A DNA stretch of 11,041 nucleotides from an uncultured Coriobacteriia bacterium (GTDB lineage: Bacteria > Actinomycetota > Coriobacteriia > Coriobacteriales > QAMH01), in contig CASDTD010000158.1 in NCBI GenBank assembly GCA_949283445.1, positions 1 to 11,041 on the forward strand, given 5' to 3'. Below, piece by piece: positions 1 to 11,041 of the stretch (position 1 is its first letter; every line of letters begins with the position of its first letter). The notes under the pieces are model-generated. The model was given only the letters and a program-made list of their open reading frames with translations, did not search any database and was not told the origin of the DNA. The position numbers and the translations under genes are program-made.

Positions 1-2136
1 GAAGTCGTCTACCACAAGGATCGTCTGCTCTACCCCATGAAGCGCGACCCGAAGGATCGCGGCAAGGACAAGTGGGAGCGCATCTCTTGGGACGAGGCCA
101 TCGACCTGGTTGCGAACACCTTCCTGGACATCAAGGAAAAGTACGGCGCTGAGGCCGTCATGTTCGGTCAGGGCACCGGCCGCGACATCGCCGCGTACAT
201 CACGCGTCTGTGCTGGTCGTTCGGTTCCCCGAACTACGTCCTGTTCCTGTCTGGCTGCGCCTGCTACCTGCCGCGCGTTGCTGGCTTCGCCGCCACGGCC
301 GGCTCCTTCTGGGTTGCTGACTGCTCGCAGGAATTCGCCGATCGTTACGACAACCCCGAGTACGTCGTTCCCGAGACCATGTTCGTCTGGGGCAACTACC
401 CGCTGCGCGCCAACTCCGACGGTTTCTACGGCCACTGGGTCGTCGACCTCATGAAGCGCGGCATGGAGCTCGTCGTCATCGACCCGAAGGTCACCTGGAT
501 GTCTGTCCACTCCAGGCTGCACCTGCCGGTTCGCCCCGGCTGCGACGCCGCTCTGGCTCTGGGCTTCCTGAACATCATCATCAAGGAAGACCTCTACGAT
601 CACGACTTCGTCGATCGCTGGACCTATGGCTTCGAAGAGCTGGCCAAGCGCGTCGAGGAGTACACGCCCGAGCGTGTCGCCGACATCACTTGGATCCCCG
701 AAGAGAAGATCATCGAGGCTGCTCACATCCTGGCCGAGTCCAAGCCCTGCACCATGCAGTGGGGCGTTGCAGTCGACATGACCAAGGAAGCTCTGCCCGC
801 TTCCCAGGCTATCGCTGCTTGCTTCCAGATCACGGGCAACGTCGACATCCCCGGCGGCATCATCGCTCCGCCTGAGATCCTCAACTACGCCGGTGGCTGG
901 GGCCGCGAGCTCTGCCCCGAGGAGACCTGGCAGAAGCGCATCGGTCTGGACAAGTACCCGCTGCTCAACTTCGGCTTCCAGATCGCTCAGCCCGACGAAC
1001 TGCGTCACACCATGGTGACCGGCAAGCCGTACAAGATCCATGCTTCCTGGCTGCAGCAGAACAACTGCCTGTCCTGCATGTCCGCTGACCCGCAGGAGAT
1101 GTACCTCGGCCTCATGAACTGCGACTTCAACGTCTCCGTTGACCTGTTCATGACCCCGACCATCATGGCTACCTCCGACGTTGTCCTGCCGGCTGCCACC
1201 TTCCCCGAGCGCGACGGTATCCGCGTCGGCGACGGTGTCCAGCGTGGCGAGGTCATCAACAAGGTCTGCCAGGTTGGCGAGTGCAAGTCCGACATGGAGA
1301 TCAACCTCGAGCTCGGCAAGCGCTTCAACCCCGAGGCCTGGCCGTGGGAGGATGTCGACGAGATGTTCGGCGCCATGCTCAAGGCCCAAACGCCGTACAA
1401 CTTCGAGGAGATGCGTGAGCATCACCCGGTCTACCTGCCGTTCAGCTACCGTCGTTACGAGACCGGCCGCCTGCGTGCCGATGGCCAGCCCGGCTTCAAC
1501 ACCCCGACCGGCCGCATCGAGCTGTGGTCCACGTTCTACAACTCCGCCGGCATGGACCCGATGCCCTACTTCGAAGAGCCGGTTCCTGGTCCTGGCTCCA
1601 CGCCGGAGCTCCTCGACGAGTACCCGCTGGTCCTCACCACCGGTGCACGTCCGTGGTCGCTGTTCCACTCCGAGCATCGTCAGGTCGCCCGCCTGCGTGC
1701 CCTCAAGCCCGAAGGCAATGTCTACATGAACCAGCAGACTGCCGACGAACAGGGTCTCAAAGACGGCGACTGGGTGTGGGTCGAGAACATCTACGGCCGC
1801 TGCAAGCTGCAGGTCGAGATCACGAACCTGTACCAGAACCCGAAGATCATCGCGTGCGACCATGCTTGGTGGCACCCCGAGGGAGACGCAGAGAGCCTGT
1901 TCGAGTCTCATGACATGAACGTCAACAACCTGCTCCCCGGCATCCCCGGCAAGTCGGGCTTCGGTTCGAACTACAAGACCACGTTGGTCAAGCTCTACAA
2001 GGTCACGCCGGAAGACGCCGACAACGGCTACTTCCTCGGCCTCGACGACGAGTACACGCCGCAGGCGCTGGACGGCAAGGGCGTTCCCGCCATCCAGGCT
2101 CTCGTCGATGAGCGCAACGCGATCATGAACAACTAA
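1..2136 (+). CDS. Molybdopterin oxidoreductase large subunit A, catechol dehydroxylase/transhydroxylase-like (5' partial)
   Basis: Catalytic subunit of a DMSO-reductase-superfamily enzyme that would bind Mo (or W) bis-MGD. The reading frame is open from base 1, and comparison with paralogue B puts the true start about 78 codons upstream, outside the window; the ATG at 37 is internal (MKRD, matching residue 91 of B). 711 residues are visible. Cofactor-binding hallmarks include QGTGRD (57-62), WGNYP, the VIDPKVTW stretch, RPGCDAALALG, QWGVAVDM and LPAATFPERDG. The C-terminal dinucleotide-binding domain carries TTGARPWSLFHSEHR. Cys88 in ACYLPR is the candidate metal ligand (inference). By eye it is about 60% identical to B, with some 40 extra C-terminal residues. 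Homologues known in gut Eggerthellaceae remove hydroxyl groups from catechols; acetylene hydratase and pyrogallol transhydroxylase are more distant relatives. The substrate here is unknown. It is followed after 19 bases by the ferredoxin subunit gene. Confidence 0.93.
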   Translation, partial: EVVYHKDRLLYPMKRDPKDRGKDKWERISWDEAIDLVANTFLDIKEKYGAEAVMFGQGTGRDIAAYITRLCWSFGSPNYVLFLSGCACYLPRVAGFAATAGSFWVADCSQEFADRYDNPEYVVPETMFVWGNYPLRANSDGFYGHWVVDLMKRGMELVVIDPKVTWMSVHSRLHLPVRPGCDAALALGFLNIIIKEDLYDHDFVDRWTYGFEELAKRVEEYTPERVADITWIPEEKIIEAAHILAESKPCTMQWGVAVDMTKEALPASQAIAACFQITGNVDIPGGIIAPPEILNYAGGWGRELCPEETWQKRIGLDKYPLLNFGFQIAQPDELRHTMVTGKPYKIHASWLQQNNCLSCMSADPQEMYLGLMNCDFNVSVDLFMTPTIMATSDVVLPAATFPERDGIRVGDGVQRGEVINKVCQVGECKSDMEINLELGKRFNPEAWPWEDVDEMFGAMLKAQTPYNFEEMREHHPVYLPFSYRRYETGRLRADGQPGFNTPTGRIELWSTFYNSAGMDPMPYFEEPVPGPGSTPELLDEYPLVLTTGARPWSLFHSEHRQVARLRALKPEGNVYMNQQTADEQGLKDGDWVWVENIYGRCKLQVEITNLYQNPKIIACDHAWWHPEGDAESLFESHDMNVNNLLPGIPGKSGFGSNYKTTLVKLYKVTPEDADNGYFLGLDDEYTPQALDGKGVPAIQALVDERNAIMNN

Positions 2137-2137
2137 C

Positions 2138-2145
2138 GAGAGGGG
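2138..2145 (+). promoter_or_regulatory. Ribosome binding site of ferredoxin subunit A
   Basis: The purine run GAGAGGGG lies directly after the large-subunit stop codon and 10 bases before the ATG at 2156. It fixes that start. A second ATG at 2146 is in another frame and is not used. Confidence 0.6.
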
Positions 2146-2155
2146 ATGGAAAGGT

Positions 2156-2536
2156 ATGCAAACTCCTAAGGAATTGAACAGCCGTCCTGCTGCTGAGTAC
2201 GGCATGCTCGTCGACTGGCAGTGGTGCACCGGTTGCCACAGCTGCGAAGTTGCCTGCCAGATGGAGCTCGGCCTGCCCGTCGGTCAGTCCGGCGTCGTCC
2301 TCCAGGACATGGGCCACTGGCCTCTGGAAGAGGGCAGCGATGATTGGCAGCTCGGCTACCTGCCGACCTTCAACATCGTGTGCGACACCTGCAAGGATCG
2401 TCGCTCCCTGGGCAAGGTCCCGACCTGCGTCCAGCACTGCCAGGCTCAGTGCCTCGAGTTCGGCCCCATCGACGAGATGGCCGAGAAGGCAAAGGAGCAC
2501 AAGGACTACGTGCTCTTCTCTCTCAACGAGCAGTAA
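2156..2536 (+). CDS. 4Fe-4S ferredoxin-type electron-transfer small subunit A
   Basis: Small Fe-S protein of 126 aa that would pass electrons to large subunit A in a cytoplasmic heterodimer. Visible cysteines are Cys24, 27, 30 and 34 (a CxxCxxCxxxC ferredoxin motif) and Cys76, 79, 91, 95 and 99. These nine are enough for two [4Fe-4S] clusters. It is much shorter than NrfC/DmsB-type subunits, which bind four clusters, and shorter than the transhydroxylase small subunit. There is no signal peptide or membrane segment. It is clearly paralogous to the 118-aa small subunit of module B, sharing WCTGCHSCE and the PTCV-x-HCQA-x-C block. The start is ATG 2156 with an upstream purine-rich SD. The gene sits 19 bases after the large subunit, so the two are one operon. 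The electron donor is not encoded in the window. Confidence 0.92.
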   Translation: MQTPKELNSRPAAEYGMLVDWQWCTGCHSCEVACQMELGLPVGQSGVVLQDMGHWPLEEGSDDWQLGYLPTFNIVCDTCKDRRSLGKVPTCVQHCQAQCLEFGPIDEMAEKAKEHKDYVLFSLNEQ

Positions 2537-2557
2537 GAACTAGACATTCGTTGAAAC

Positions 2558-2586
2558 CGCGCCCGCTTCGAAAAGGAGCGGGCGCG
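2558..2586 (+). terminator. GC-rich hairpin after ferredoxin A, possible terminator
   Basis: A perfect 10-bp stem (CGCGCCCGCT pairing with AGCGGGCGCG) closes a 9-base loop TCGAAAAGG, 21 bases after the ferredoxin stop codon. No T-tract follows, so it may act as a Rho-assisted terminator, an attenuator or an mRNA 3'-end stabiliser rather than a classic intrinsic terminator. The loop and 3' arm resemble the hairpin after the MFS gene. Confidence 0.6.
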
Positions 2587-2594
2587 AGATAGGA

Positions 2595-2658
2595 GGCTAG
2601 GCGTTTGAACTGCAGATTCACACCTCAGGTGTGAAGTGTGAGATTCATACGCCTAGCC
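2595..2658. repeat. Nested inverted repeats, candidate operator or structured leader
   Basis: Perfect 10-base outer arms, GGCTAGGCGT (2595-2604) and ACGCCTAGCC (2649-2658), enclose 44 bases. Inside is a perfect palindrome TTCACACCTCAGGTGTGAA (2617-2635, 9-base arms around one C), followed by another GTGTGA half-site at 2636-2641 (AGTGTGAG context). As DNA it suits a dimeric regulator. As RNA it would fold into an 8-bp hairpin inside a 10-bp stem. It lies between the module A enzyme genes and the MFS gene. The function is inferred; the repeats themselves are seen directly. Confidence 0.7.
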
Positions 2659-2695
2659 AACTGTCATCCCGGGAATTTCCCCATAAAGTTCCCGT

Positions 2696-2725
2696 TGTTG
2701 CGGCAATAGCGGATGTTTCGCAACA
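2696..2725. repeat. Inverted repeat TGTTGCG-N16-CGCAACA upstream of MFS gene
   Basis: Perfect 7-base arms, TGTTGCG (2696-2702) and CGCAACA (2719-2725), are separated by 16 bases. The element lies 43 bases upstream of the MFS start codon, within the probable promoter/leader region. It could be an operator or a leader hairpin. A 7-base match could also occur by chance. Confidence 0.4.
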
Positions 2726-2732
2726 CAGAGAG

Positions 2733-2751
2733 ATTCTTACCAGTTAAGAAT
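2733..2751. promoter_or_regulatory. Inverted repeat ATTCTTA-N5-TAAGAAT next to the MFS ribosome binding site
   Basis: Perfect 7-base arms (2733-2739 and 2745-2751) around CCAGT form a 19-base dyad that ends four bases before the AAGGAGGG ribosome binding site (2756-2763), which is 5 bases from ATG 2769. The position suits an operator just downstream of or overlapping the transcription start, or a leader hairpin that limits ribosome access. Confidence 0.5.
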
Positions 2752-2768
2752 TTGCAAGGAGGGTTTTA

Positions 2769-4058
2769 ATGTCAGCTATTCAGTCTTATGGCGTCCTGAA
2801 GGGCCGCCAGACCACGAACACGGAGCGTTGGCTGAGCTTTGCGGCTCTGTTCCTGTTCGGCTTCACGTCGGCTTGCAACATGTTCAAGTCGTCGCCTGTT
2901 ATGTCCGTCATCGGCGAGCAGTTCGGCGTGGGCGCCGGTGACCTCGGTCTTATCATGACGTCTTACTCCATCGCGGCTTTGATCTTCGCGCCCATCGGCG
3001 CTCTGGTCATGCGCAAGGTCGGCGTCAAGTTCATGGTCGTCGTCTCCTGCGCGATCATGATCGTCGGCACCTTCATTGCCGCTATCGCCTCCTCTTGGGG
3101 CGTCTTCCTGTTCGGCCGCGTCATCGAGGGCGTTGCCTACGGCCTCATCTGCGTTGAAGGCCCGAACATCCTGCCGCGTCTGTTCCCCCGTCGTCAGATG
3201 GGCATCGCAGTCGGCATCTGGTCGCAGTGGATTCCCTGCGGCACCATCATCGCCTTCTTCGCCGCTCCGGGCCTCTATGGCATGACCGGTAGCTGGCAGG
3301 GCGTCTGGTGGGCCACGCTGGTTCTCGACATCGTCGCGTTCATCCTGCTGATCGCGCTGGTCAAGATGCCCGCCAAGAACGAGAACACCATCGTTGACGG
3401 CGACGACACCATCGAGGCCAAGCCTGGCAAGCAGTTCTTTATGTCCGCTTGCGCAGTCTGCTGCATCTTCTTCATTTGGGTGTACCTCTACGTCGTCAAC
3501 ATCAACCAGCTCTACCCGACCTTCCTGCAGGAGGTCAAGGGCATGGACATGTTCACGTCCTCCATGCTGCCTAACGTGCTGGCTGCTATCACGATCGTCC
3601 TCGGCATCATCGCCGGCGTCATCTCCGACAAGTACCCCATCCGCAAGAAGACCCTCGTTGCCATGTACGTGGTCGTTGCCCTCATCTACTGGTTCCTGGC
3701 CTTCAACCCGGGCACCGAGACGGGCACCGCTTGGGCGTTCTGCGTCATCATGGGTATCGCGGCTTCCTTTATCCCGACCTACACCCGTGGTATCACGCCT
3801 GTTCTTACCACTGACGGCTTCAAGACCGACATGTCCCTGATGTGCATGGCGTTCTTCACCGGCCTGGCCCAGTGCTTCGCGTTCGTCGCGACCCAGACCG
3901 TCGCCGCCATCGGTTGGTTCAACAACGCTCACTTCGTCCTCGCTCCGCTGGCTATCCTGGCTGCTATCCTGGTTCTCGTCCTGGTCAAGGACGACGCCGC
4001 TGTCGTCAAGATCCGCGAAGAGGAAGAGGCTGCCGACCGCGCCGCAGCTGGCAAATAA
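2769..4058 (+). CDS. Major facilitator superfamily transporter
   Basis: Inner-membrane secondary transporter of 429 aa, the usual length for a 12-helix MFS carrier. Six hydrophobic helices lie at about residues 22-200, then a charged central loop at about 201-222, then six more to about 406, and an acidic/alanine-rich cytoplasmic tail. MFS signatures: the helix 2-3 region APIGALVMRKVGVK (74-87), the helix 4 GRVIEGVAYG stretch (116-125), and the second-half motif-A copy G-VISDKYPIRKK (283-294, Asp287). The start ATG has a strong AAGGAGGG SD 5 bases away. It is separated from the enzyme genes by 232 bases of inverted repeats, so it probably has its own control. MFS genes often sit beside catechol dehydroxylase genes in gut actinobacteria. 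Import of the enzyme's substrate or export of its product is therefore likely, but the ligand cannot be deduced. Confidence 0.93.
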   Translation: MSAIQSYGVLKGRQTTNTERWLSFAALFLFGFTSACNMFKSSPVMSVIGEQFGVGAGDLGLIMTSYSIAALIFAPIGALVMRKVGVKFMVVVSCAIMIVGTFIAAIASSWGVFLFGRVIEGVAYGLICVEGPNILPRLFPRRQMGIAVGIWSQWIPCGTIIAFFAAPGLYGMTGSWQGVWWATLVLDIVAFILLIALVKMPAKNENTIVDGDDTIEAKPGKQFFMSACAVCCIFFIWVYLYVVNINQLYPTFLQEVKGMDMFTSSMLPNVLAAITIVLGIIAGVISDKYPIRKKTLVAMYVVVALIYWFLAFNPGTETGTAWAFCVIMGIAASFIPTYTRGITPVLTTDGFKTDMSLMCMAFFTGLAQCFAFVATQTVAAIGWFNNAHFVLAPLAILAAILVLVLVKDDAAVVKIREEEEAADRAAAGK

Positions 4059-4109
4059 CTGTTCGACGTCAGCTTGAATTAACGCTATTGCCACCTATGC
4101 ACTAAGCGC

Positions 4110-4143
4110 AGCGGGCTTGCTCTCGAAAGGGAGCGGGCCCGCT
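4110..4143 (+). terminator. Hairpin after MFS gene, probable terminator
   Basis: A 13-bp stem with two G:U pairs joins 4110-4122 (AGCGGGCTTGCTC) to 4131-4143 (GAGCGGGCCCGCT) around loop TCGAAAGG, 51 bases after the MFS stop. The G:U pairs form only in the + strand transcript, which supports a role downstream of the MFS gene. No T-run follows. It resembles the 2558-2586 hairpin in loop and 3' arm. Confidence 0.6.
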
Positions 4144-4165
4144 CGTCGCGTCTTGCAAGACATGT

Positions 4166-4205
4166 CAAGGTGTCTCTGGGATGCAATATGCGAATGACCA
4201 CCTTG
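4166..4205. repeat. Inverted repeat CAAGGTG-N26-CACCTTG upstream of zinc-ribbon gene A
   Basis: Perfect 7-base arms (4166-4172 and 4199-4205) lie 63 bases or more upstream of the zinc-ribbon start at 4268. They lie in the only intergenic space that could hold a promoter for the zinc-ribbon/LuxR pair. The TACTAT at 4230-4235 could be a -10 box, but I see no convincing -35 at the right distance. Possible operator; chance cannot be excluded. Confidence 0.35.
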
Positions 4206-4267
4206 GCGGGGGAAGGGTGGCTGGTACGGTACTATGAAATGCACTGAAGCGAAAAGGGGGTCGCAGA

Positions 4268-4468
4268 ATGTCTTGCGGTTACGCGTGCGTTGGGTGTGGA
4301 AAATGCCAGGGGATCGCCCGCCCCTTGATGGCTGCGGGGTACTGCCCTGCGTGCCATACGCAAAACGATGCTGACGCGGTCAGGTGCAGCGGCTGCGGCA
4401 TGACGTTGCCTCCTGTGGCCGGCGCCCTTCGTTCGGAGCTTGCAGCAACTTCCTCCAAGGAGAACTAG
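4268..4468 (+). CDS. Double-knuckle zinc-ribbon miniprotein A
   Basis: A 66-aa protein with eight cysteines: Cys3, 7, 10 and 13 near the N-terminus and Cys26, 29, 40 and 43 as a CPAC-x10-CSGCG zinc ribbon. It would bind one or two Zn (or Fe) ions. There is no membrane segment. The ATG has an AAGGGGG SD 7 bases upstream (4254-4260). The stop codon TAG overlaps the GTG start of the membrane LuxR gene (TAGTG, 4466-4470), so the two are translationally coupled and probably act in the same process. A 58-aa paralogue is at 6083-6259, and both share the spacing C-x2-C-x2-C then C-x2-C-x10-C-x2-CG followed by a PP. The role is unknown; a partner or modulator of the regulator, or a metal/redox-sensing accessory, is inference. 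Confidence 0.85.
   Translation: MSCGYACVGCGKCQGIARPLMAAGYCPACHTQNDADAVRCSGCGMTLPPVAGALRSELAATSSKEN
4457..4462 (+). promoter_or_regulatory. Ribosome binding site deciding the GTG start of regulator A
   Basis: AAGGAG lies inside the end of the zinc-ribbon gene, 5 bases before GTG 4468. It supports that start over the longer open frame beginning at 4384, which would overlap the zinc-ribbon gene by 85 bases and has no comparable SD. Confidence 0.75.
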
Positions 4469-6042
4469 TGGCCTCCTCGGGCTCCAAGTGGAGCGTCCCG
4501 AAACCTGTGGGGAGCCCCGGCGCGCATTCGCACGCGCTCGGCTCTTTGCTCACGCCCCAGTTCTTGGGTGCGTTGGTGGGCTCCGTCCTGTACTGGAGCT
4601 GGATGTTCCTGTTCTATTGGACCGATTCCCTCGTTTCCTACCTCGCCTTCGACGATGGGCTGCTGTGCAAGGGATGCGGTTTTCTCGGCTCGGCGGTCAC
4701 GCTCGGGCTCATCTACCTGCTGGGCAAGCACAAGGTCCTTTTTCTTGCCAAAGGCGCGTTCGGCATTGCCGTGCCCGCAGTGCTCACGCCTGTTGTCGGC
4801 ATCGTCAACATACTCGTGGTGTACGTGGGCGTGCATATCTCGTTTCCCCTGCTGCTCGTGTGTTGGTTTGTCTCTGGACTGGGCATCGCCTTCATCCTCG
4901 TGCAATCGGGCGAGCTTCTGTGCCACCTGGTCAACGAGGCGACCATGCTGTTGCTATTCATGACCTTGTTCTTGAGCGCCATGCTGTGCATGTTGCTGCT
5001 CCAGACGGGTTCGGGTGTGGTCGAGGGCTATATGATCGGCGCCCCCTGGGTCAGCTTGGGCATTGTGCGCGCCGGGCTGCGCGAGCGTCACAAGGCCGGG
5101 GAGGGCGAGACGGTCGACGACAGCATCACCCCGCAGTTCAACTCCCCTGAATCGCGTACGCGCTACCGCCTGCTCATCGTGCAGCAGCTGCTGTTTTCGA
5201 TCGTGTTCTCGTTCGGGCAGTTCGCGAGCGTTTGCTATGCGTCTGTTGCCGGCTATGAGATTTTCGATTTCTTCTGGGTTGCCCTGTTTCTCTCGGGTGC
5301 CCTGTTTTTGCTGTACAGCTGCTGGCTCAACCGTTACGTGTCGCTGAACTCCCTGCAGATGATTCTGCTTCTGCTGACCGCGTTCTCGATTATCTTCCTC
5401 ACGCTGACGGCGCTCGACACGCGCCTGCGTTTCTGCTTCAGCGTGCTGCTGTGCCTGGGTTTCACTGCATTCGACGTGCTCAGCATGTATCAGCTCGCGC
5501 GCACCGTCGCGGTCAACAAGCTGCCCTTCGCGCGCTATTTCTCGGCCGGGCGTTTCGCCAACGCGTCGGGCATGTTCATTGGCTGGGCGCTGGTGTTCGG
5601 CGCTATCATGCTCAACGGCGGGGTGGTCGAAGGCGTGCAGTTCCAGTACATCCTGGTAGTCGCGTTCATCTTACTGGTGTTTTATTTTGCCTTTGCGTCG
5701 CGTGTGGAGCCTTCGGAAGACGACGAAGTGCTTGCTGCTCCGGGCACGGTGCGCAGCGAGGAAGAGGCGCCTAAGCGTCCTGTAGAGGGGTATTGGAAGC
5801 GCGCGACGCGAACCTTGAGCGAACGCTATGCGCTGTCGCCGCGCGAGATTGACGTGTTCGAGTTGTTAGGCCGTGGCCGCGACACCGGTTATATCTGCGA
5901 CTCGCTGTACATATCGGCCAGCACGGTCAAGACGCATTCCTATCATATCTATCAGAAGATGGGCGTTCATTCGCAGCAGGAGCTCATCTCCGCGCTGGAA
6001 AAGGAAGTGACGCTCATGCGCTCGGGAGAAGAGCAGGCGTAG
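4468..6042 (+). CDS. Polytopic membrane LuxR-family transcriptional regulator A
   Basis: Predicted 524-aa membrane-embedded regulator. About 12 hydrophobic helices lie between residues 31 and 412 (for example 31-50, 125-145, 160-178, 233-262, 296-318, 365-385, 392-412). A hydrophilic acidic linker follows (413-450), then a C-terminal LuxR/GerE helix-turn-helix at about 455-512 with LSPREIDVF and recognition helix STVKTHSYHIYQKMGV. There is no receiver or PAS domain, so the membrane part is the likely ligand sensor. The family is abundant in Eggerthellaceae beside oxidoreductase genes. The start is GTG 4468, coupled to the zinc-ribbon gene by TAGTG and served by AAGGAG. The likely targets are the inverted-repeat promoters upstream of the MFS and module A genes (inference). 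Regulator B in this window is a paralogue with the same plan. Confidence 0.9.
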   Translation: MASSGSKWSVPKPVGSPGAHSHALGSLLTPQFLGALVGSVLYWSWMFLFYWTDSLVSYLAFDDGLLCKGCGFLGSAVTLGLIYLLGKHKVLFLAKGAFGIAVPAVLTPVVGIVNILVVYVGVHISFPLLLVCWFVSGLGIAFILVQSGELLCHLVNEATMLLLFMTLFLSAMLCMLLLQTGSGVVEGYMIGAPWVSLGIVRAGLRERHKAGEGETVDDSITPQFNSPESRTRYRLLIVQQLLFSIVFSFGQFASVCYASVAGYEIFDFFWVALFLSGALFLLYSCWLNRYVSLNSLQMILLLLTAFSIIFLTLTALDTRLRFCFSVLLCLGFTAFDVLSMYQLARTVAVNKLPFARYFSAGRFANASGMFIGWALVFGAIMLNGGVVEGVQFQYILVVAFILLVFYFAFASRVEPSEDDEVLAAPGTVRSEEEAPKRPVEGYWKRATRTLSERYALSPREIDVFELLGRGRDTGYICDSLYISASTVKTHSYHIYQKMGVHSQQELISALEKEVTLMRSGEEQA

Positions 6043-6067
6043 CGGGGCGTTTTGCCTGGCGATGCTG

Positions 6068-6100
6068 GTGCCCACAGCGCTTTTACGCTTTCGAGGGCAC
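6068..6100. terminator. Hairpin between convergent regulator A and zinc-ribbon B genes
   Basis: GTGCCC (6068-6073) and GGGCAC (6095-6100) enclose a second short stem AGCG/CGCT with a CTTTTA loop. The structure overlaps the last codons of the zinc-ribbon B gene and follows the regulator A stop by 25 bases. It may act as a weak two-way terminator for the converging genes. No clean T-run follows on either strand. Confidence 0.3.
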
Positions 6101-6259
6101 AGAGGGGTCGTCCACGCCGGGGCGCGGCGGGAACACGAAGCCGCAGCTTTCGCATATCTTGGCATCGGGCGCGTTCATCGCCTTGCATATCGGGCACTGG
6201 CCGAAGGGCTTCGGCTTGCTTTTCTCGCAGTGGCCGCAGTGCTTGCAGGGGTAGCACAT
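6083..6259 (-). CDS. Double-knuckle zinc-ribbon miniprotein B
   Basis: A 58-aa protein paralogous to the one at 4268-4468. Cysteines are Cys2, 5, 8 and 11 (MCYPCKHCGHC), then Cys22, 25, 36 and 39 in a CPIC-x10-CESCG zinc ribbon, followed by FPPRPG. I chose ATG 6259 because an AAAGGA SD lies 7 bases upstream; an in-frame GTG at 6265 is too close to it. Reading toward regulator A, it ends 40 bases from that gene's stop codon. It lies 281 bases downstream of ferredoxin B on the same strand, behind a strong terminator, so it is probably transcribed mostly on its own. Unlike its paralogue it is not fused to or coupled with a LuxR gene. The function is unknown; metal binding is a safe expectation from the cysteine pattern. 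Confidence 0.78.
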   Translation of the reverse strand: MCYPCKHCGHCEKSKPKPFGQCPICKAMNAPDAKICESCGFVFPPRPGVDDPSVPSKA

Positions 6260-6320
6260 ACACACATCCTTTCTCTGAGTGTCGTCCGGCGGGTTTGCTC
6301 TGCTCCGATGTTTCGCACCC

Positions 6321-6404
6321 GCTCAGACCGGGCGTTGCTCAAGCGCTCGGGCGCAGTGCCCTACACGCGCCTTGTCGCGCTCCCGAGTAACGCCCGGCCT
6401 GAGC
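6321..6404. repeat. Large imperfect inverted repeat upstream of zinc-ribbon B
   Basis: Left arm 6321-6340 (GCTCAG, A, CCGGGCGTTGCTC) pairs with right arm 6385-6404 (GAGTAACGCCCGG, C, CTGAGC). Nineteen of 20 positions pair, with one G:U on the + strand and a single A/C mismatch, around a 44-base GC-rich middle. It lies in the 6260-6540 spacer. It could be a structured RNA, a two-way terminator or a protein-binding site. I see no mobile-element gene inside it. Confidence 0.6.
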
Positions 6405-6480
6405 TGCTCCACTTGCCTCCGCAAGGCAAACCCGCCGTACGCCGCATGCGAGCAGCGCACGACAGCGGTAGCGCGCTTGC

Positions 6481-6516
6481 AAAAACGGGCTTGCGAAGCA
6501 GATGCCCCGCAAGCCC
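6481..6516 (-). terminator. Intrinsic terminator of the module B enzyme operon
   Basis: Read on the - strand, a perfect 9-bp stem GGGCTTGCG / CGCAAGCCC with a 12-base loop is followed by GTTTTTG. It starts 25 bases after the ferredoxin B stop codon. The stem plus T5 makes this the clearest Rho-independent terminator in the window, and it separates the enzyme genes from zinc-ribbon B. Confidence 0.8.
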
Positions 6517-6540
6517 GCGCGTGATGCAGAAACGGTGCGC

Positions 6541-6897
6541 CTACAGGGCGAACAGCGTCTGCTTGGGATGGTCGTGCAGCTGCTTGACCAGGTCCTCAAT
6601 CTTGCCGTAGGTCATGCACTTGGCCTGGCAGTGCTTCACGCAGGTGGGCTGCTTGCCCTTGCCCACGCGCTCTTCGCACAGGTCGCACTGGTCGCCGAAG
6701 ACCACCATGTAGTCAAACTGCCACGTGTCGGCCTCGATTTCCCACGGACCCATCTCGAAGACCTTCACGCCGGTCTGGCCAATGGGGTAGTCGTATTCCA
6801 TCTGGCATGCCATTTCGCAGGAATGGCAGCCCGTGCACCACTCGTAGTCGACGAGAATGCCGTACTCGGGGTTCTTGGTCTTATCCATCAAAGGCAT
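6541..6897 (-). CDS. 4Fe-4S ferredoxin-type electron-transfer small subunit B
   Basis: A 118-aa Fe-S protein, the electron-transfer partner of large subunit B. Cys21, 24, 27 and 31 form the CxxCxxCxxxC motif; Cys71, 74, 86, 90 and 94 form the second group, giving room for two [4Fe-4S] clusters. There is no signal peptide or hydrophobic helix, so it is cytoplasmic. It closely matches the module A small subunit in length and cysteine spacing, with WCTGCHSCE and PTCVKHCQAKC shared or nearly so. ATG 6897 lies three bases after the large-subunit stop and has a GGAAGGGG SD (6906-6913) inside the end of that gene, 8 bases away, so translation of the pair is closely linked. A second Met four codons in (6888) is a weaker alternative start. 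Confidence 0.92.
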   Translation of the reverse strand: MPLMDKTKNPEYGILVDYEWCTGCHSCEMACQMEYDYPIGQTGVKVFEMGPWEIEADTWQFDYMVVFGDQCDLCEERVGKGKQPTCVKHCQAKCMTYGKIEDLVKQLHDHPKQTLFAL

Positions 6898-6900
6898 GTT

Positions 6901-9150
6901 CTATTCCCCTTCCTTGACCTTGTAGAGTTTCACAAGGTTGCACTTGTAGTTGGAGCCGAAGCCGGACTTGCCGGGCGTCCAGGTGATCTCCTGGTTGATG
7001 TTGAGATCGAAGACGTCGTACAGGTCTTCCGGCTTGGCCTCGGGGAACCACCAGCCGTGGTCGGTGGAGACCATGTTCTCGTGCAGCACCTGCGGGGTGA
7101 TGGTGACCTTGCGCTTGACGCGGTCCATGTAGTTCTCGACCCATACCCAGTCGCCTTCCTCGAGGCCGAGCTTGGCGGCGGTGTTGGGATGGACCTCGAT
7201 CAGCGGGTCGGGGTGTCCGGCGCGCAGACGCGGGATGTTACGGTGCTCGGAATGGAACTGCCACCAGTTGCGGGCGCCGGTGGTGAGCACCAGCGGGTAC
7301 TCGTCCATCATCTCGGGCGTGGAGTAGGGGCCGGGCTCGGGTTCCTCGAAGTAGGGCATCGGGTCGAGGCCGAAGCTGTTGTACGACGTGCACCACAGCT
7401 CGATGCGGCCGGTGGGCGTGTTGAAGCCGGGCTGGCCGTCGGCGCGCAGCAGGCCCTTCTCGTATTTCTTGTACTCGTACTTCGGGTACAGCGGGGCGAC
7501 TTCGCGCATGCCGTCGAAATCGTAGCCCGTGGACTCGATGACGTAGGAGAACATCTCCTTGACGTCCTTCCACGGCCAGGCCTCGGGGTTCAGGCGACGG
7601 CCAAGCTCGAGGTTGATTTCCATGTCGGACTTGCATTCGCCGATCTGCGTGACCTTGTTGATGGTCTCGCCACGCTGCGGGCCGTCGCCGATGCGGATGC
7701 CGTCGCGCTCGGGGTAGGTGGCAGCCGGCAGGACGATGTCGGCAAGCGCCATGATGGTGGGGGTCATGAACAGGTCGACGCAGTAGACGAAGTCCATCTT
7801 CTGGGCGGCCGCAAGCCAGCGCTTGGGGTCGGCGCCCATGCAGGCGATGGTGTTGGTGGTCTGCAGCCACAGGCCGTGCACCTCGTAGGGTTCGCCCGTC
7901 TCCATGGCCTCCATCATGACGTCGGCCTGCAGGGTGGCAAAGCCGGCGCCCAGCGCGGGGTACTTGTCCAGGCCAAGGCGCTTGGCCTCCTGCTCGGGGG
8001 TGAGCAGGTCAGCGCCGAAGCCGCCGCCGTAGAACAGGATTTCAGGCGGGACGATCATGCAGCCGGGCTTGTCGATGAAGCCGCAGATCTGGGGCAGGGC
8101 CATGATGGCCTGGCCGGCGGGCAGGGCTTCCTTGGTCATGTCGACGGCAACGCCCCACTGCACGCAGGCAGCTTCTGCGTTGGCGAACATGCGTGCGGCC
8201 GCGATGATCTTCTCGGCGGGCACCCACGTGGTCTCGGCGACCTTTTCCACCGGGTACTCAGCGCAGCGGGCCTTGAACTCGTCGAAGCCGTAGCACCACT
8301 TGCTCACGAAGTCGTGGTCGTAGAGGTCTTCTTGGATGATGACGTTGAGCATGCCCAGGGCAAGCGCGGCATCGGTGCCGGGGCGCACGGGCAGCTGCAG
8401 GGCGGCGCGGCTTCCCAGCCAGGTGATGCGCGGGTCCATGACGATGAGCTTCATGCCGAGCTTCATGGCGTCGACGACCCAGTGGCCGAAGAAGCCGTCG
8501 GAGTTGGAGACCAGCGGGTTGTTACCCCAGACGATCATGACCTCGGGGCACTTCCAGTTGGGGTTGTCGTAACGGTCGGGGTATTCCTGGGACATGTCGC
8601 AGACCCAGAAGCTGCCGGTGGTCGTGTAGCAGCCGGCCACGCGGGGCAGGTAGCAGGCCAGGCCGGAGAACGGGAAGCCGTAGTTGGGCGAGCCGTACGA
8701 CCAGGCCAGGCGCGAGATCCACGAGGCGATGTCGCGGCCGGTGCCCTGCATGAACATGACCGATTCGGGGCCGTACTTTTCGGCCGTCTCCTTGAGCTGG
8801 GCCTCGATGGTGTCGAAGGCCTCGTCCCAGGTGATGCGCTCCCACTCGTCGACGCCGCGCTTGGACTTGTCGCGCTTCATCGGGTAGGTCAGGCGCAGGT
8901 CGCTGTTGGTGACCTCGGGGATGTCGAGGCAGCGCACGCACAGACGACCCTGAGTGAAGGGGTTCTCCTCGTCGCCTTCGCACTTGACGAGCTTGCCGTT
9001 CTCGTCGGTGTAGAGCAACACGCCGCAGCCCAGGTGGCAGCCAGGGCCGGTCCATGCGCTGCCGCGGGTGACGGTCAGGCCGTCCTCCTCATAGCGCCAT
9101 GGCTTCTCATGGTCGATCTGGGGATAGTACCTTTCATCAGTCTCCGCCAT
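6901..9150 (-). CDS. Molybdopterin oxidoreductase large subunit B, catechol dehydroxylase/transhydroxylase-like
   Basis: Complete catalytic subunit, 749 aa from ATG 9150 (purine-rich leader GAGAGAAAGAGAG). The frame stays open upstream, but those codons look non-coding. There is no twin-arginine signal, so it is cytoplasmic. N-terminal cysteines are Cys38, 42, 57, 71 and 74 (GPGCHLGC and GRLCVRC). The canonical Cx2Cx3C Fe-S motif has Gly at the first position. Cofactor motifs: QGTGRDIA (135-142), WGNNP (208-212), RPGTDAALALG (256-266), QWGVAVDM (331-338), LPAATYPERDG (474-484). The dinucleotide-binding domain covers about 618-745, with TTGARNWWQFHSEHRN. Cys166 in ACYLPR is the candidate Mo ligand (inference). 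Known relatives are acetylene hydratase, pyrogallol transhydroxylase and the catechol dehydroxylases of gut Coriobacteriia. A reductive dehydroxylation is the best guess; the substrate is unknown. It diverges from regulator B, its probable controller. Confidence 0.93.
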   Translation of the reverse strand: MAETDERYYPQIDHEKPWRYEEDGLTVTRGSAWTGPGCHLGCGVLLYTDENGKLVKCEGDEENPFTQGRLCVRCLDIPEVTNSDLRLTYPMKRDKSKRGVDEWERITWDEAFDTIEAQLKETAEKYGPESVMFMQGTGRDIASWISRLAWSYGSPNYGFPFSGLACYLPRVAGCYTTTGSFWVCDMSQEYPDRYDNPNWKCPEVMIVWGNNPLVSNSDGFFGHWVVDAMKLGMKLIVMDPRITWLGSRAALQLPVRPGTDAALALGMLNVIIQEDLYDHDFVSKWCYGFDEFKARCAEYPVEKVAETTWVPAEKIIAAARMFANAEAACVQWGVAVDMTKEALPAGQAIMALPQICGFIDKPGCMIVPPEILFYGGGFGADLLTPEQEAKRLGLDKYPALGAGFATLQADVMMEAMETGEPYEVHGLWLQTTNTIACMGADPKRWLAAAQKMDFVYCVDLFMTPTIMALADIVLPAATYPERDGIRIGDGPQRGETINKVTQIGECKSDMEINLELGRRLNPEAWPWKDVKEMFSYVIESTGYDFDGMREVAPLYPKYEYKKYEKGLLRADGQPGFNTPTGRIELWCTSYNSFGLDPMPYFEEPEPGPYSTPEMMDEYPLVLTTGARNWWQFHSEHRNIPRLRAGHPDPLIEVHPNTAAKLGLEEGDWVWVENYMDRVKRKVTITPQVLHENMVSTDHGWWFPEAKPEDLYDVFDLNINQEITWTPGKSGFGSNYKCNLVKLYKVKEGE

Positions 9151-9197
9151 GATTCTCTCTTTCTCTCGATGCGTATGTAACCACACGATGCAAAGAT

Positions 9198-9222
9198 TAC
9201 AAAACGGTGACGTCGTTTTGTA
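9198..9222. promoter_or_regulatory. Inverted repeat TACAAAACG-N7-CGTTTTGTA, candidate operator of module B
   Basis: Perfect 9-base arms (9198-9206 and 9214-9222) around GTGACGT lie 48 bases upstream of the large subunit B start, in the 285-base space between divergent genes. The AT-rich arms stand out from the GC-rich surroundings. On the - strand TTGTAA and TTACAT with 16 bases between them could be a weak promoter starting within the right side of this element. Binding by regulator B is an inference. Confidence 0.6.
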
Positions 9223-9319
9223 TCGTCTGGCGGGGCGAAACGGATGGCATACCTTAAGTTTAGCCTTTGACCTGCGCAAACGCTGAAACGCGTCGGTTAT
9301 CTTGCAGTGTGCTGCCACA

Positions 9320-9366
9320 GCGCTTGCATGTGTTTTCACGCCTGCTCATACGCATTTTGCAAGCGC
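9320..9366. promoter_or_regulatory. Inverted repeat GCGCTTGC-N31-GCAAGCGC upstream of regulator B
   Basis: Perfect 8-base arms (9320-9327 and 9359-9366) are separated by 31 bases, ending 69 bases before the regulator B start. They may be paired regulator half-sites on the regulator's own promoter. I see no convincing -35/-10 pair here. The rest of 9223-9435 holds no gene I can support. Confidence 0.4.
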
Positions 9367-9419
9367 GTGAGGTGCATGCGGGGGGCGCTTTCTCGTATGC
9401 TGGTCACATTGTGTTTTCT

Positions 9420-9428
9420 AGGAAGGGG
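9420..9428 (+). promoter_or_regulatory. Ribosome binding site deciding the start of regulator B
   Basis: AGGAAGGGG lies 7 bases before ATG 9436. It favours this start over the longer open frame from 9307, whose extra 43 residues are Cys/Arg-rich and unlike a protein N-terminus. Confidence 0.75.
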
Positions 9429-9435
9429 TAGCCGC

Positions 9436-10926
9436 ATGGACCAGGCGTCTTCACGGGGCGCGTCAGCCGATGTCGACAAGACGTTTCTGCTGTTTCTTGT
9501 AGCAGGGTTTTCTCTGACGTGGTCGGTGACGTACGTGTTCGCCTACAGCTTCGTCTTCACGCCGCTCGACGTGTTCACGCAAGCGCAGGCGGATACCGCG
9601 CGCGTGAGCTACATCGGCGCCATCGCCCTTGCGCAGGGCGTGCTGTGCCTGGTCATGACGCGCTTGCTGAAGTGCCGCACGTTCAGGCTGCCGTTGGGTT
9701 CTGCCGTCTCGCTCGTGCTGTGCGTGATGGTGGGCGTCTACACGGCCGCCGCGCAGCAGCCCTTCGGCAACGTGGTGCTTGTGTTCATGCTGATTTCCGC
9801 TGGCATCTGGCAGGGGTGTTTTCATGTGCTGTGGGCGGAGATGTTCGCCTATCTGCGCGAGCCGGCGAGCCGACGGCTCATCTTCTCGTCTGTTGCCATC
9901 GGCGCCGTCGTGTTCATGGTCACGGTGCTTTTCGCGCAGCAGGCCACGTCGTATCTCACTATCTTGCTGGCCATCTGCTCGCTGGGCTGCTATGTGGCCG
10001 CGCAGGCGCGCAAGCCCCGCTTCGAGCTCAGTTGCAAGGTCGCTTCGCGCAAGCTGAAGAAGGACTTCCACAAGAGCAATGTCATCATGATGGTGTTCGG
10101 CGCGGTGTTCGGCGTTGGCATCTATGCCGCCATGACCACGACGGCTCTGCCCGCGTACGTCGCCTATGCGGTGACGGGTGCGGCGCTTGCCCTGGGCGCG
10201 GCGGCGCTGCTGGTCATCAGCCTTGTCTCGAACCGCAGCTACAGCTTGAGCGAGGTCACCTTGGCGCTGTCCCCGGTCATCGCCATCCTGCTTCTGACGC
10301 TCGTGTTCGTGAGGGGGCTTCCCGCGTGGATTATCTACGTCGTCATGATCGCCCTACTCACGGCGTTTGACACGACGGCGTTCTGTTTTCACCTGGGGGT
10401 GACGCGGGAAATGGGTCTGTCGCCGTTTTCGGCGCTCGCACGTGGGCGTTTCCTCATCCAGTTCGGCATGTTCATCGCGTCGTTGGCCAATCTCGTCTTC
10501 GTCTACTACGTCGACGCCTCGCACAGCCATTCGTTTCTCATACCGCTGGTCATGGTCGGCTTTCTGTTTGTCATGGTCTCGTCGGTGAGCCGCGTCGATT
10601 TCATGCCGCACGGGCATGCAGACGAAGACGTTGCGCCGGCAGATGTCATGCTCGTGGACGAAGGGCGCCCCCAGGCCCCGAAGCCCGTTTCGGCGGCGGA
10701 TCTGGTGCAGGCGATGGGGGATGACTACGACCTCTCGCGCAGGGAACGCGATGTGCTCAACCTGCTGCTTGCGGGCCACACCGCGCAAAGCATCGCCGAC
10801 AAGCTCGTGATATCGCTCAACACCGTCAAGTCGCACACCTACCACATCTACCGCAAGATGGGCATCAACTCGAAGCAGGAGATCGTCGACATCCGCGACG
10901 CGTACGCGAAAAAGCTGCAGGGATAG
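9436..10926 (+). CDS. Polytopic membrane LuxR-family transcriptional regulator B
   Basis: Predicted 496-aa membrane regulator. About 12 hydrophobic helices span residues 15 to 384, with a basic cytoplasmic loop in the middle (about 191-214, KVASRKLKKDFHKS). A linker follows (385-430), then a LuxR/GerE helix-turn-helix at about 432-488 with LSRRERDVLNLL and recognition helix NTVKSHTYHIYRKMGI. It shares this plan and HTH wording (TVK-[TS]-H-[ST]-YHIY-x-KMG) with regulator A. No receiver or other soluble sensor domain is present. It is transcribed away from large subunit B, with 285 bases between the starts that hold two inverted repeats. This is the usual layout for a regulator that controls its divergent neighbour. 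A ligand sensed in the membrane, perhaps the enzyme's substrate, is inference. Confidence 0.91.
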   Translation: MDQASSRGASADVDKTFLLFLVAGFSLTWSVTYVFAYSFVFTPLDVFTQAQADTARVSYIGAIALAQGVLCLVMTRLLKCRTFRLPLGSAVSLVLCVMVGVYTAAAQQPFGNVVLVFMLISAGIWQGCFHVLWAEMFAYLREPASRRLIFSSVAIGAVVFMVTVLFAQQATSYLTILLAICSLGCYVAAQARKPRFELSCKVASRKLKKDFHKSNVIMMVFGAVFGVGIYAAMTTTALPAYVAYAVTGAALALGAAALLVISLVSNRSYSLSEVTLALSPVIAILLLTLVFVRGLPAWIIYVVMIALLTAFDTTAFCFHLGVTREMGLSPFSALARGRFLIQFGMFIASLANLVFVYYVDASHSHSFLIPLVMVGFLFVMVSSVSRVDFMPHGHADEDVAPADVMLVDEGRPQAPKPVSAADLVQAMGDDYDLSRRERDVLNLLLAGHTAQSIADKLVISLNTVKSHTYHIYRKMGINSKQEIVDIRDAYAKKLQG

Positions 10927-11041
10927 GGCGAGAAGGCGGTTAATGGCGGTTGACCTGCCCGCATCTGCCCTGCAGAGAAGGGGGGCGGCTGAGAACTGCC
11001 CTGCGATGTGGAGGCTGCGACAAGCGGAGCGGGCATCGGGA
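10927..11041. other. Non-coding tail after regulator B
   Basis: 115 bases to the window end with no gene I can support. It holds a short direct repeat GGCGGTT at 10935-10941 and 10945-10951. No terminator with a T-tract is visible before the window ends. Confidence 0.4.

Follow-up and report, generated by a model that had tools for sequence, protein, structure and literature searches.

An eight-cysteine miniprotein as a candidate helper of cytoplasmic molybdenum enzymes in Eggerthellaceae

What is the role of an eight-cysteine miniprotein that is encoded twice in one locus, each time in a gene cluster of a molybdenum (Mo) enzyme? The question is raised by a stretch of 11,041 nucleotides from an uncultured Coriobacteriia bacterium (contig CASDTD010000158.1, positions 1 to 11,041; the window), which carries two Mo-enzyme modules named A and B. 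Both contain a large subunit (LS), a small ferredoxin-like subunit, a membrane LuxR-type regulator and the miniprotein, hereafter the ribbon. An original prediction, made from the letters alone, had recognized this four-part set in both modules, but had overlooked that module A also encodes a major facilitator superfamily (MFS) transporter and that LS A is truncated at its 5′ end. Module A runs entirely on the + strand in the order LS, ferredoxin-like subunit, MFS, ribbon, LuxR; module B has ribbon, ferredoxin-like subunit and LS on the – strand, and its LuxR gene (LuxR B) diverges from LS B on the + strand. Judged by their sequences, both enzymes resemble the Gordonibacter-type catechol dehydroxylases, cytoplasmic two-subunit enzymes with a molybdenum bis-pyranopterin guanine dinucleotide cofactor (Mo-bisPGD), and may act on catechols. 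Published descriptions, on which we draw in excerpts here and below, give this type two cytoplasmic subunits, an LS without a twin-arginine translocation (Tat) signal, and MFS and membrane LuxR neighbors (PMC7028382, PMC11887054, PMC11585353, PMC12771579); its members include Dodh, Cldh/(-)-Eddh, Gp Hcdh, Eadh1/2 and (+)-Eldh1/2. We consider the ribbon a candidate helper of cytoplasmic Mo enzymes in Eggerthellaceae.

Ribbon genes were located relative to Mo-enzyme genes in a complete Gordonibacter genome (G002) and in a second Gordonibacter chromosome (G001). Eight-cysteine ribbons (type 1) were counted when full-length at E below about 1e-8 (16 of 40 matches in G002, 9 of 25 in G001), and a second ribbon class, MCFRP, when close to full length (20 of 32 matches in G002, 10 of 21 in G001); all other matches of both classes were partial or weak. 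Across the two genomes, 24 of the 25 full-length type-1 ribbons lay within 5 kb of a PF00384 match, compared with 17% and 21% of random positions; the partial type-1 matches examined did so in 8 of 11 (G002) and 3 of 6 cases (G001). We read 82 Mo open reading frames (ORFs) in G002 and counted 79, three having been dropped as stop-split or read in the wrong frame; Tat signals were called by a motif rule of our own, with ORF 328364 overruled by hand. A ribbon of either class was present within 5 kb of 35 of the 54 non-Tat Mo ORFs but of none of the 25 Tat ORFs (p 9e-9), and TorD-type genes showed the opposite distribution (2 of 54 versus 17 of 25). The contrast persisted when the ORFs were merged into 58 clusters: a ribbon was present in 21 of the 35 clusters without a Tat enzyme and in none of the 23 with one (p 8e-7). 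For G001, domain coordinates were merged by hand to 65 Mo entries and a distance of 6 kb was applied: 23 entries had a ribbon alone, 15 a TorD-type gene alone, one both and 26 neither (p 0.003).

In G002, a non-Tat Mo ORF was no more than 2.5 kb away from 31 of the 36 ribbons, and a Tat ORF from none; in a local-shift control, 2000 shifts of 10–60 kb yielded a mean of 8.0 ribbons near a non-Tat Mo ORF and a maximum of 16. The MCFRP ribbons taken by themselves lay within 2.5 kb of non-Tat Mo enzymes in 16 of 20 cases. Ribbons shared the strand of their nearest annotated neighbor in 14 of 16 and 18 of 20 cases. Among the 34 G002 ORFs that belong to the clade of the window LS (LS profile score >800), all 34 were accompanied by a ferredoxin gene, 26 by a ribbon and 18 by LuxR. 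On the scale of whole genomes, a type-1 ribbon (E 1e-8) occurred in 33 of the 37 genomes in which LS A had a match at E 1e-200 and in 14 of the 101 others; matches at E 0.01 were present in all nine genomes tested, and at E 1e-8 none was left in G007. In the genomes read, the ribbon gene is restricted to the neighborhood of non-Tat Mo enzymes: its companion is the cytoplasmic enzyme and not an exported one, and its tie to LuxR is not strict.

This linkage was followed into orthologous loci. A search of 138 Eggerthellaceae genomes yielded LS A orthologues (84–87% identical) in eight, and in all of them, including G124 with its 3-kb contig, a ribbon A orthologue stands beside the LS and a ferredoxin A homologue behind it. 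LS B orthologues (74–75%) occur in G002, G004 and G063, all of which are among these eight genomes, and locus L001 holds a further relative (73%); a ribbon B homologue lies near the LS in all four loci. An MFS homologue of 65–70% identity was present in four LS A loci and one of 39% in a fifth. In comparisons of ribbon A with five orthologues, dN was 0.43–0.65 and dS ranged from 1.4 to saturation; ribbon A is under purifying selection. LuxR adjoins the LS A orthologue in three of seven loci (G063, G002, G004); none turned up in G116 (9 kb fetched), G119 (40 kb), G076 and G056 (20 kb each), and the short G124 contig allows no verdict. LuxR is thus not a constant member, and we abandoned the idea that all four parts always occur together. 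In G002, the LS A orthologue shares 87% identity with LS A, but the LuxR homologue next to it only about 32% with LuxR A: the regulators diverge or are replaced much faster than the enzymes. The original prediction had treated neighborhoods of close homologues that usually lack the ribbon or LuxR as evidence against a set, and this came half true: among 12 loci with an LS at least 58% identical to LS B (two of them, L026 and L046, being contigs that end within the LS), LuxR was nearby in 10 and a ribbon of either type in 4, namely L001, L002, L003 and L041, with MCFRP-type ribbons in L002 and L003. Encoded in cis, the ribbon is present by some relatives only and is not universal.

Furthermore, ribbon divergence and LS divergence are correlated. 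With the shared cysteines masked and each ribbon assigned to the LS closest to it at up to 4 kb, which left 38 of 43 ribbons, a Mantel test gave r 0.65 for the 38 pairs (0 of 5000 permutations) and r 0.32 for 21 non-redundant pairs with LS identity below 80% (6 of 5000). The nearest LS and the nearest ribbon agreed in only 14 of the 38 pairs; the pairing matched some A ribbons of G002, G004 and G063 to another LS.

More miniproteins built alike came to light when the first 68 related loci were searched with a profile. In an alignment of 18 ribbons all eight cysteines were invariant, with the pattern C-x(2-6)-C-x2-C-x2-C ... C-x2-C ... C-x2-C, and among 61 aligned ribbons seven were invariant and one was conserved in >90%. 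From its four CX2C motifs, the ribbon would have two metal sites. A protein search returned 85 relatives at E 1e-3, part of which are generic multi-ribbon proteins; the three eight-cysteine relatives with source names are Gordonibacter 'zinc ribbon domain-containing' or 'hypothetical' proteins. Members of the second class begin with MCFRP and contain a single zinc ribbon and mostly a Pro/Ala-rich tail. Homology to FdhE found no Pfam support, neither among 25 families shown of 27 (61 members, E 0.01) nor, with an E threshold of 1, for the two window ribbons, and the TorD family PF02613 was likewise missing in both comparisons. Matches in the PDB by fold or profile were generic ribbons, for example RanBP-type fingers and ribosomal eL40, and were not used. 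No ribbon fused to an enzyme or transporter was seen among six loci looked at; the long open frames shown for five of them read as high-GC frames ahead of an in-frame Met. In Gordonibacter locus L201, the ribbon genes of neighboring modules (13982–14299 on + and 14169–14369 on –) share about 130 bases in a tail-to-tail arrangement, and such an overlap also occurs in G002 at 332.8–333.4 kb, with the eight cysteines intact in both frames. MCFRP-like miniproteins were also observed outside Coriobacteriia, in Desulfosporosinus and a deltaproteobacterium (L223, L224, L226). Two Desulfosporosinus proteins showed no LS or ferredoxin match within about 1.5 kb on each side; for one of them this stretch includes an MFS match, and in L023 an LS is located at a distance of about 5 kb from it. 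In the deltaproteobacterium, weak LS and ferredoxin matches flank one MCFRP-like protein.

We interpret the ribbon as a dedicated accessory protein, probably for maturation, of cytoplasmic Gordonibacter-type Mo-bisPGD enzymes, and estimate the probability of this reading, which builds on analogy, at a little under one half (about 0.48). The ribbon would hold Zn or Fe through its four CX2C motifs, dock in the cytoplasm on the apo-LS or the LS–ferredoxin pair and aid the insertion or assembly of a metal center, as TorD-type chaperones do for the Tat-exported relatives. In this reading, the window contains two old, linked modules, each with its own membrane LuxR as presumable substrate sensor and A with an MFS transporter in addition. 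Metal binding, physical contact and a maturation role are inferred; a role in assembly or metal insertion is proposed because FdhE has four CX2C motifs and Dadh needs a TorD-like chaperone. For the Tat-type Dadh of Eggerthella lenta, accessory genes including this chaperone are indispensable for activity (PMC11887054), and for the cytoplasmic catechol dehydroxylases we found no accessory factor named in the excerpts of the literature available to us. It is possible, if doubtful, that 55–75-residue metal-binding miniproteins (MCYxC eight-cysteine and MCFRP types) together form the maturation class of cytoplasmic Mo-bisPGD enzymes in Eggerthellaceae, taking TorD's place and tuned to individual enzyme clades.

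Several observations weigh against assigning the ribbon to enzyme maturation. Eight of the 34 G002 clade members have no ribbon within 5 kb, nor was one nearby in 8 of the 12 loci related to LS B; no type-1 ribbon reached E 1e-8 in 4 of the 37 genomes that have a close LS, and the 14 genomes noted above have one without a close LS. An MFS gene is the nearest annotated gene for 11 of the 36 G002 ribbons, so that the partner could be a transporter. In the passages available, (+)-Eldh1 and (+)-Eldh2 of G. pamelaeae are active in E. lenta (PMC11887054); activity may not depend on a cognate ribbon, or one may come from E. lenta or from the construct. The TorD contrast may mirror TorD's service to export alone rather than a ribbon doing TorD's job. 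An AlphaFold2 model of ribbon B, built from 61 sequences, reached a mean pLDDT of 65 and a pTM of 0.37 and was not used, and a Foldseek search with it returned no match at E 0.001 or better.

The main rival is an electron carrier or extra subunit: the ribbon would be a third enzyme component, which contains iron like a rubredoxin and passes electrons to the ferredoxin subunit. The cytoplasmic location of the partner enzymes and the several ribbon genes found directly behind a ferredoxin gene are in line with this, and ribbon B exceeds the cut-off for the rubredoxin-type metal domain PF18073 (LapB-rubredoxin) and marginally that for PF20864, all other Pfam matches of the two ribbons staying below. 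Of the 61 members, however, 2 matched PF18073 at E 0.01, versus 38 for the general zinc ribbon PF13240 and 31 for DZR, and the literature, as far as excerpted, gives the enzyme type two, partly predicted, subunits (PMC11887054, PMC11585353); we regard such a carrier as rather unlikely. Less likely still is a regulatory or transport partner that modulates the LuxR sensor or MFS transporter and not the enzyme. Ribbon A is translationally coupled to LuxR A, its stop codon and the GTG start sharing one base (TAGTG) with AAGGAG immediately upstream; in G002, G004 and G063, LuxR B is followed immediately by a ribbon B homologue; and LuxR is the nearest annotated gene of 5 of the 36 ribbons, beside the MFS cases mentioned. 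Against this, four of the seven LS A loci compared kept the ribbon with no LuxR found. In E. lenta, 50 of 83 membrane LuxR genes are described as lying near flavin enzymes (PMC9734109). None of the 16 type-1 ribbons of G002 lay within 5 kb of FAD_binding_2, which speaks weakly against a regulatory partner; as about one was expected (5.6% of random positions), the count is uninformative on flavin enzymes as ribbon partners, a candidate that we dropped. The ribbons could finally be generic small genes hitchhiking in Mo-enzyme-rich islands, and many Mo genes and ribbons of G002 do crowd at 200–410 kb; the local-shift control, the exclusion from Tat enzymes, the retention in orthologous loci and the correlated divergence make this improbable.

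The relation of the two modules was assessed separately. LS A and LS B share 61% identity over 668 residues, the ferredoxins 47% over 117, the ribbons 38% over 50 (E 2e-9, single comparison) and the LuxR proteins 29% over 280. In a quick IQ-TREE run on 51 LS sequences (row L207 omitted), A fell in a clade of eight and B in a clade of five, each with a Shimodaira–Hasegawa-like approximate likelihood ratio test (SH-aLRT) value of 100, and other clades stand between them. Forcing A and B together was 26.8 log units worse (approximately unbiased (AU) test, p 0.044), a marginal rejection, as clade members had been picked after the tree was seen; the 50 rows of this test also left out the long branch L206. 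G063, G002 and G004 have both modules inside a 12-kb stretch. In the Gordonibacter members of this trio, G002 and G004, a third LS module separates the A-type from the B-type module, and ribbon B and LuxR B are ordered and oriented otherwise than in the window. Since the same pair is common to three other genomes, A and B form an old, retained and linked pair that has seen rearrangement; a fresh duplication is unlikely. Duplication followed by rearrangement had been predicted originally: the four loci compared support the rearrangement, whereas the separate clades oppose a duplication within the host lineage. The refutation of a recent duplication is in part borne out by these clades and by the shared pair. 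A tandem duplication in recent host ancestry with later divergence would account for adjacent, similar gene sets, the LS identity and the marginal rejection of an A + B clade. As a simple story for the window's host it is very improbable, being disfavored by the separate clades, by the recurrence of the pair and by orthologue identities of 84–87% for LS A in eight genomes and 73–75% for LS B in others.

The features of the window are listed in Table 1.

Table 1 Annotated features of the window, with positions counted from its first nucleotide
Feature	Position	Strand	Description	Domain matches
Mo-bisPGD LS A	1-2136	+	711 aa within window, 5′ end beyond edge	PF00384, PF01568
Small 4Fe-4S ferredoxin-like subunit A	2156-2536	+	126 aa, 9 Cys	DmsB-like + Fer4 below cut-off
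Strong hairpin	2588-2665	+	separates ferredoxin A from MFS; inner palindrome 2617-2635	
MFS transporter A	2769-4058	+	429 aa, between ferredoxin A and ribbon A	PF07690 E 1.9e-40
Eight-Cys double-ribbon miniprotein A	4268-4468	+	66 aa	
Membrane LuxR-type regulator A	4468-6042	+	GTG start	GerE E 3.6e-14
Eight-Cys double-ribbon miniprotein B	6083-6265	-	60 aa, total Cys 9	
Small 4Fe-4S ferredoxin-like subunit B	6541-6897	-	118 aa, 9 Cys	Fer4 (PF00037) above cut-off
Mo-bisPGD LS B	6901-9150	-	749 aa, likely start ATG 9150	PF04879, PF00384, PF01568
Membrane LuxR-type regulator B	9436-10926	+	likely start ATG 9436 after GGAAGGGG	GerE E 9e-17

LS B contains the Fe4S4, molybdopterin and dinucleotide-binding domains, and its N-terminus (MAETDERYY...) shows no RR motif and no visible Tat signal; the N-terminal Fe4S4 domain of LS A would fall beyond the window edge. 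With the exception of PF00037 in B, the Pfam matches of the ferredoxin-like subunits stay under curated cut-offs, and the cysteine spacing fits. Both regulators end in a C-terminal GerE domain, and, set beside the roughly 12 helices first proposed, a crude hydropathy count gave 12 hydrophobic segments for LuxR B and 9 for LuxR A. The hairpin downstream of ferredoxin A (folded as 2590–2665) has a minimum free energy of -40.4 kcal/mol (z -7.6), and its inner palindrome at 2617–2635 reads TTCACACCT-C-AGGTGTGAA. No exact copy of the 17-base palindrome core was found among 242 loci, and the window, hairpin included, had no Rfam match at gathering scores. The hairpin is a candidate terminator, attenuator or operator.

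Catechol dehydroxylases determine what gut bacteria produce from plant polyphenols, lignans and ellagic acid; a strain of Gordonibacter or Ellagibacter is described as typically encoding >30 uncharacterized members (PMC12771579). As a small, recurrent and easily cloned candidate, the ribbon makes the question of an accessory factor testable, and in genomes it can serve as a tag of the cytoplasmic class of enzymes. If the miniproteins do form a maturation class, this would concern dozens of cytoplasmic Mo-bisPGD reductases per Gordonibacter genome and explain part of the difficulty of producing such enzymes in foreign hosts. The ribbon had been announced as a consistent, perhaps undescribed partner. 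It is recurrent, and no description of the family was found in literature searches whose scope excluded supplements, figures and most subscription papers, the term 'zinc ribbon' having zero occurrences among the matches listed for the catechol dehydroxylase literature; near many relatives of the enzymes it is absent.

In comparison with known systems, the window modules agree with the Gordonibacter type as described in the excerpted literature, in which the LS is smaller than in Eggerthella enzymes (Gp Hcdh, 770 aa) and is joined by one small 4Fe-4S subunit; the gene of this subunit adjoins the LS in A and B and lies within 500 bases in 34 of 34 G002 clade members. Locus L019 of G. pamelaeae 7-10-1b carries two tandem LS genes, 74% identical to each other, which, going by identity and gene numbering, are probably the published (+)-Eldh1/2; LS B shares 48% identity with an LS at this locus. 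An eight-cysteine ribbon lies 1.7 kb upstream of the L019 LS pair on the opposite strand. The regulators of the window resemble DadR, CadR and HcdR, for which 10–12 transmembrane segments, a GerE domain behind the polytopic membrane part and a position beside a Mo enzyme are described (PMC9734109). The two LuxR proteins of the window share only the 29% identity noted above. TorD/NarJ chaperones, including DadhF of E. lenta Dadh, are like the ribbon in being encoded by a dedicated gene beside one Mo-enzyme type, with a complementary distribution. They occur near Tat enzymes, consist of an all-helical domain and have no sequence match to the ribbon, a protein of 60–66 aa with eight cysteines. 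FdhE is far larger than the 60–66-aa ribbon. In the parts of the paper available, FdhE is a formate dehydrogenase chaperone that holds iron through four CX2C motifs (PMC10609526), and the ribbon likewise has four CX2C motifs; FdhE serves periplasmic formate dehydrogenases, whereas the ribbon adjoins non-Tat enzymes. DadhE, an uncharacterized, hypothetical accessory protein that E. lenta Dadh needs (PMC11887054), belongs to a Tat-type cluster; kinship with the ribbon is conceivable. Rubredoxin, finally, has one two-knuckle iron site; the ribbon has eight cysteines, and 2 of its 61 members match PF18073.

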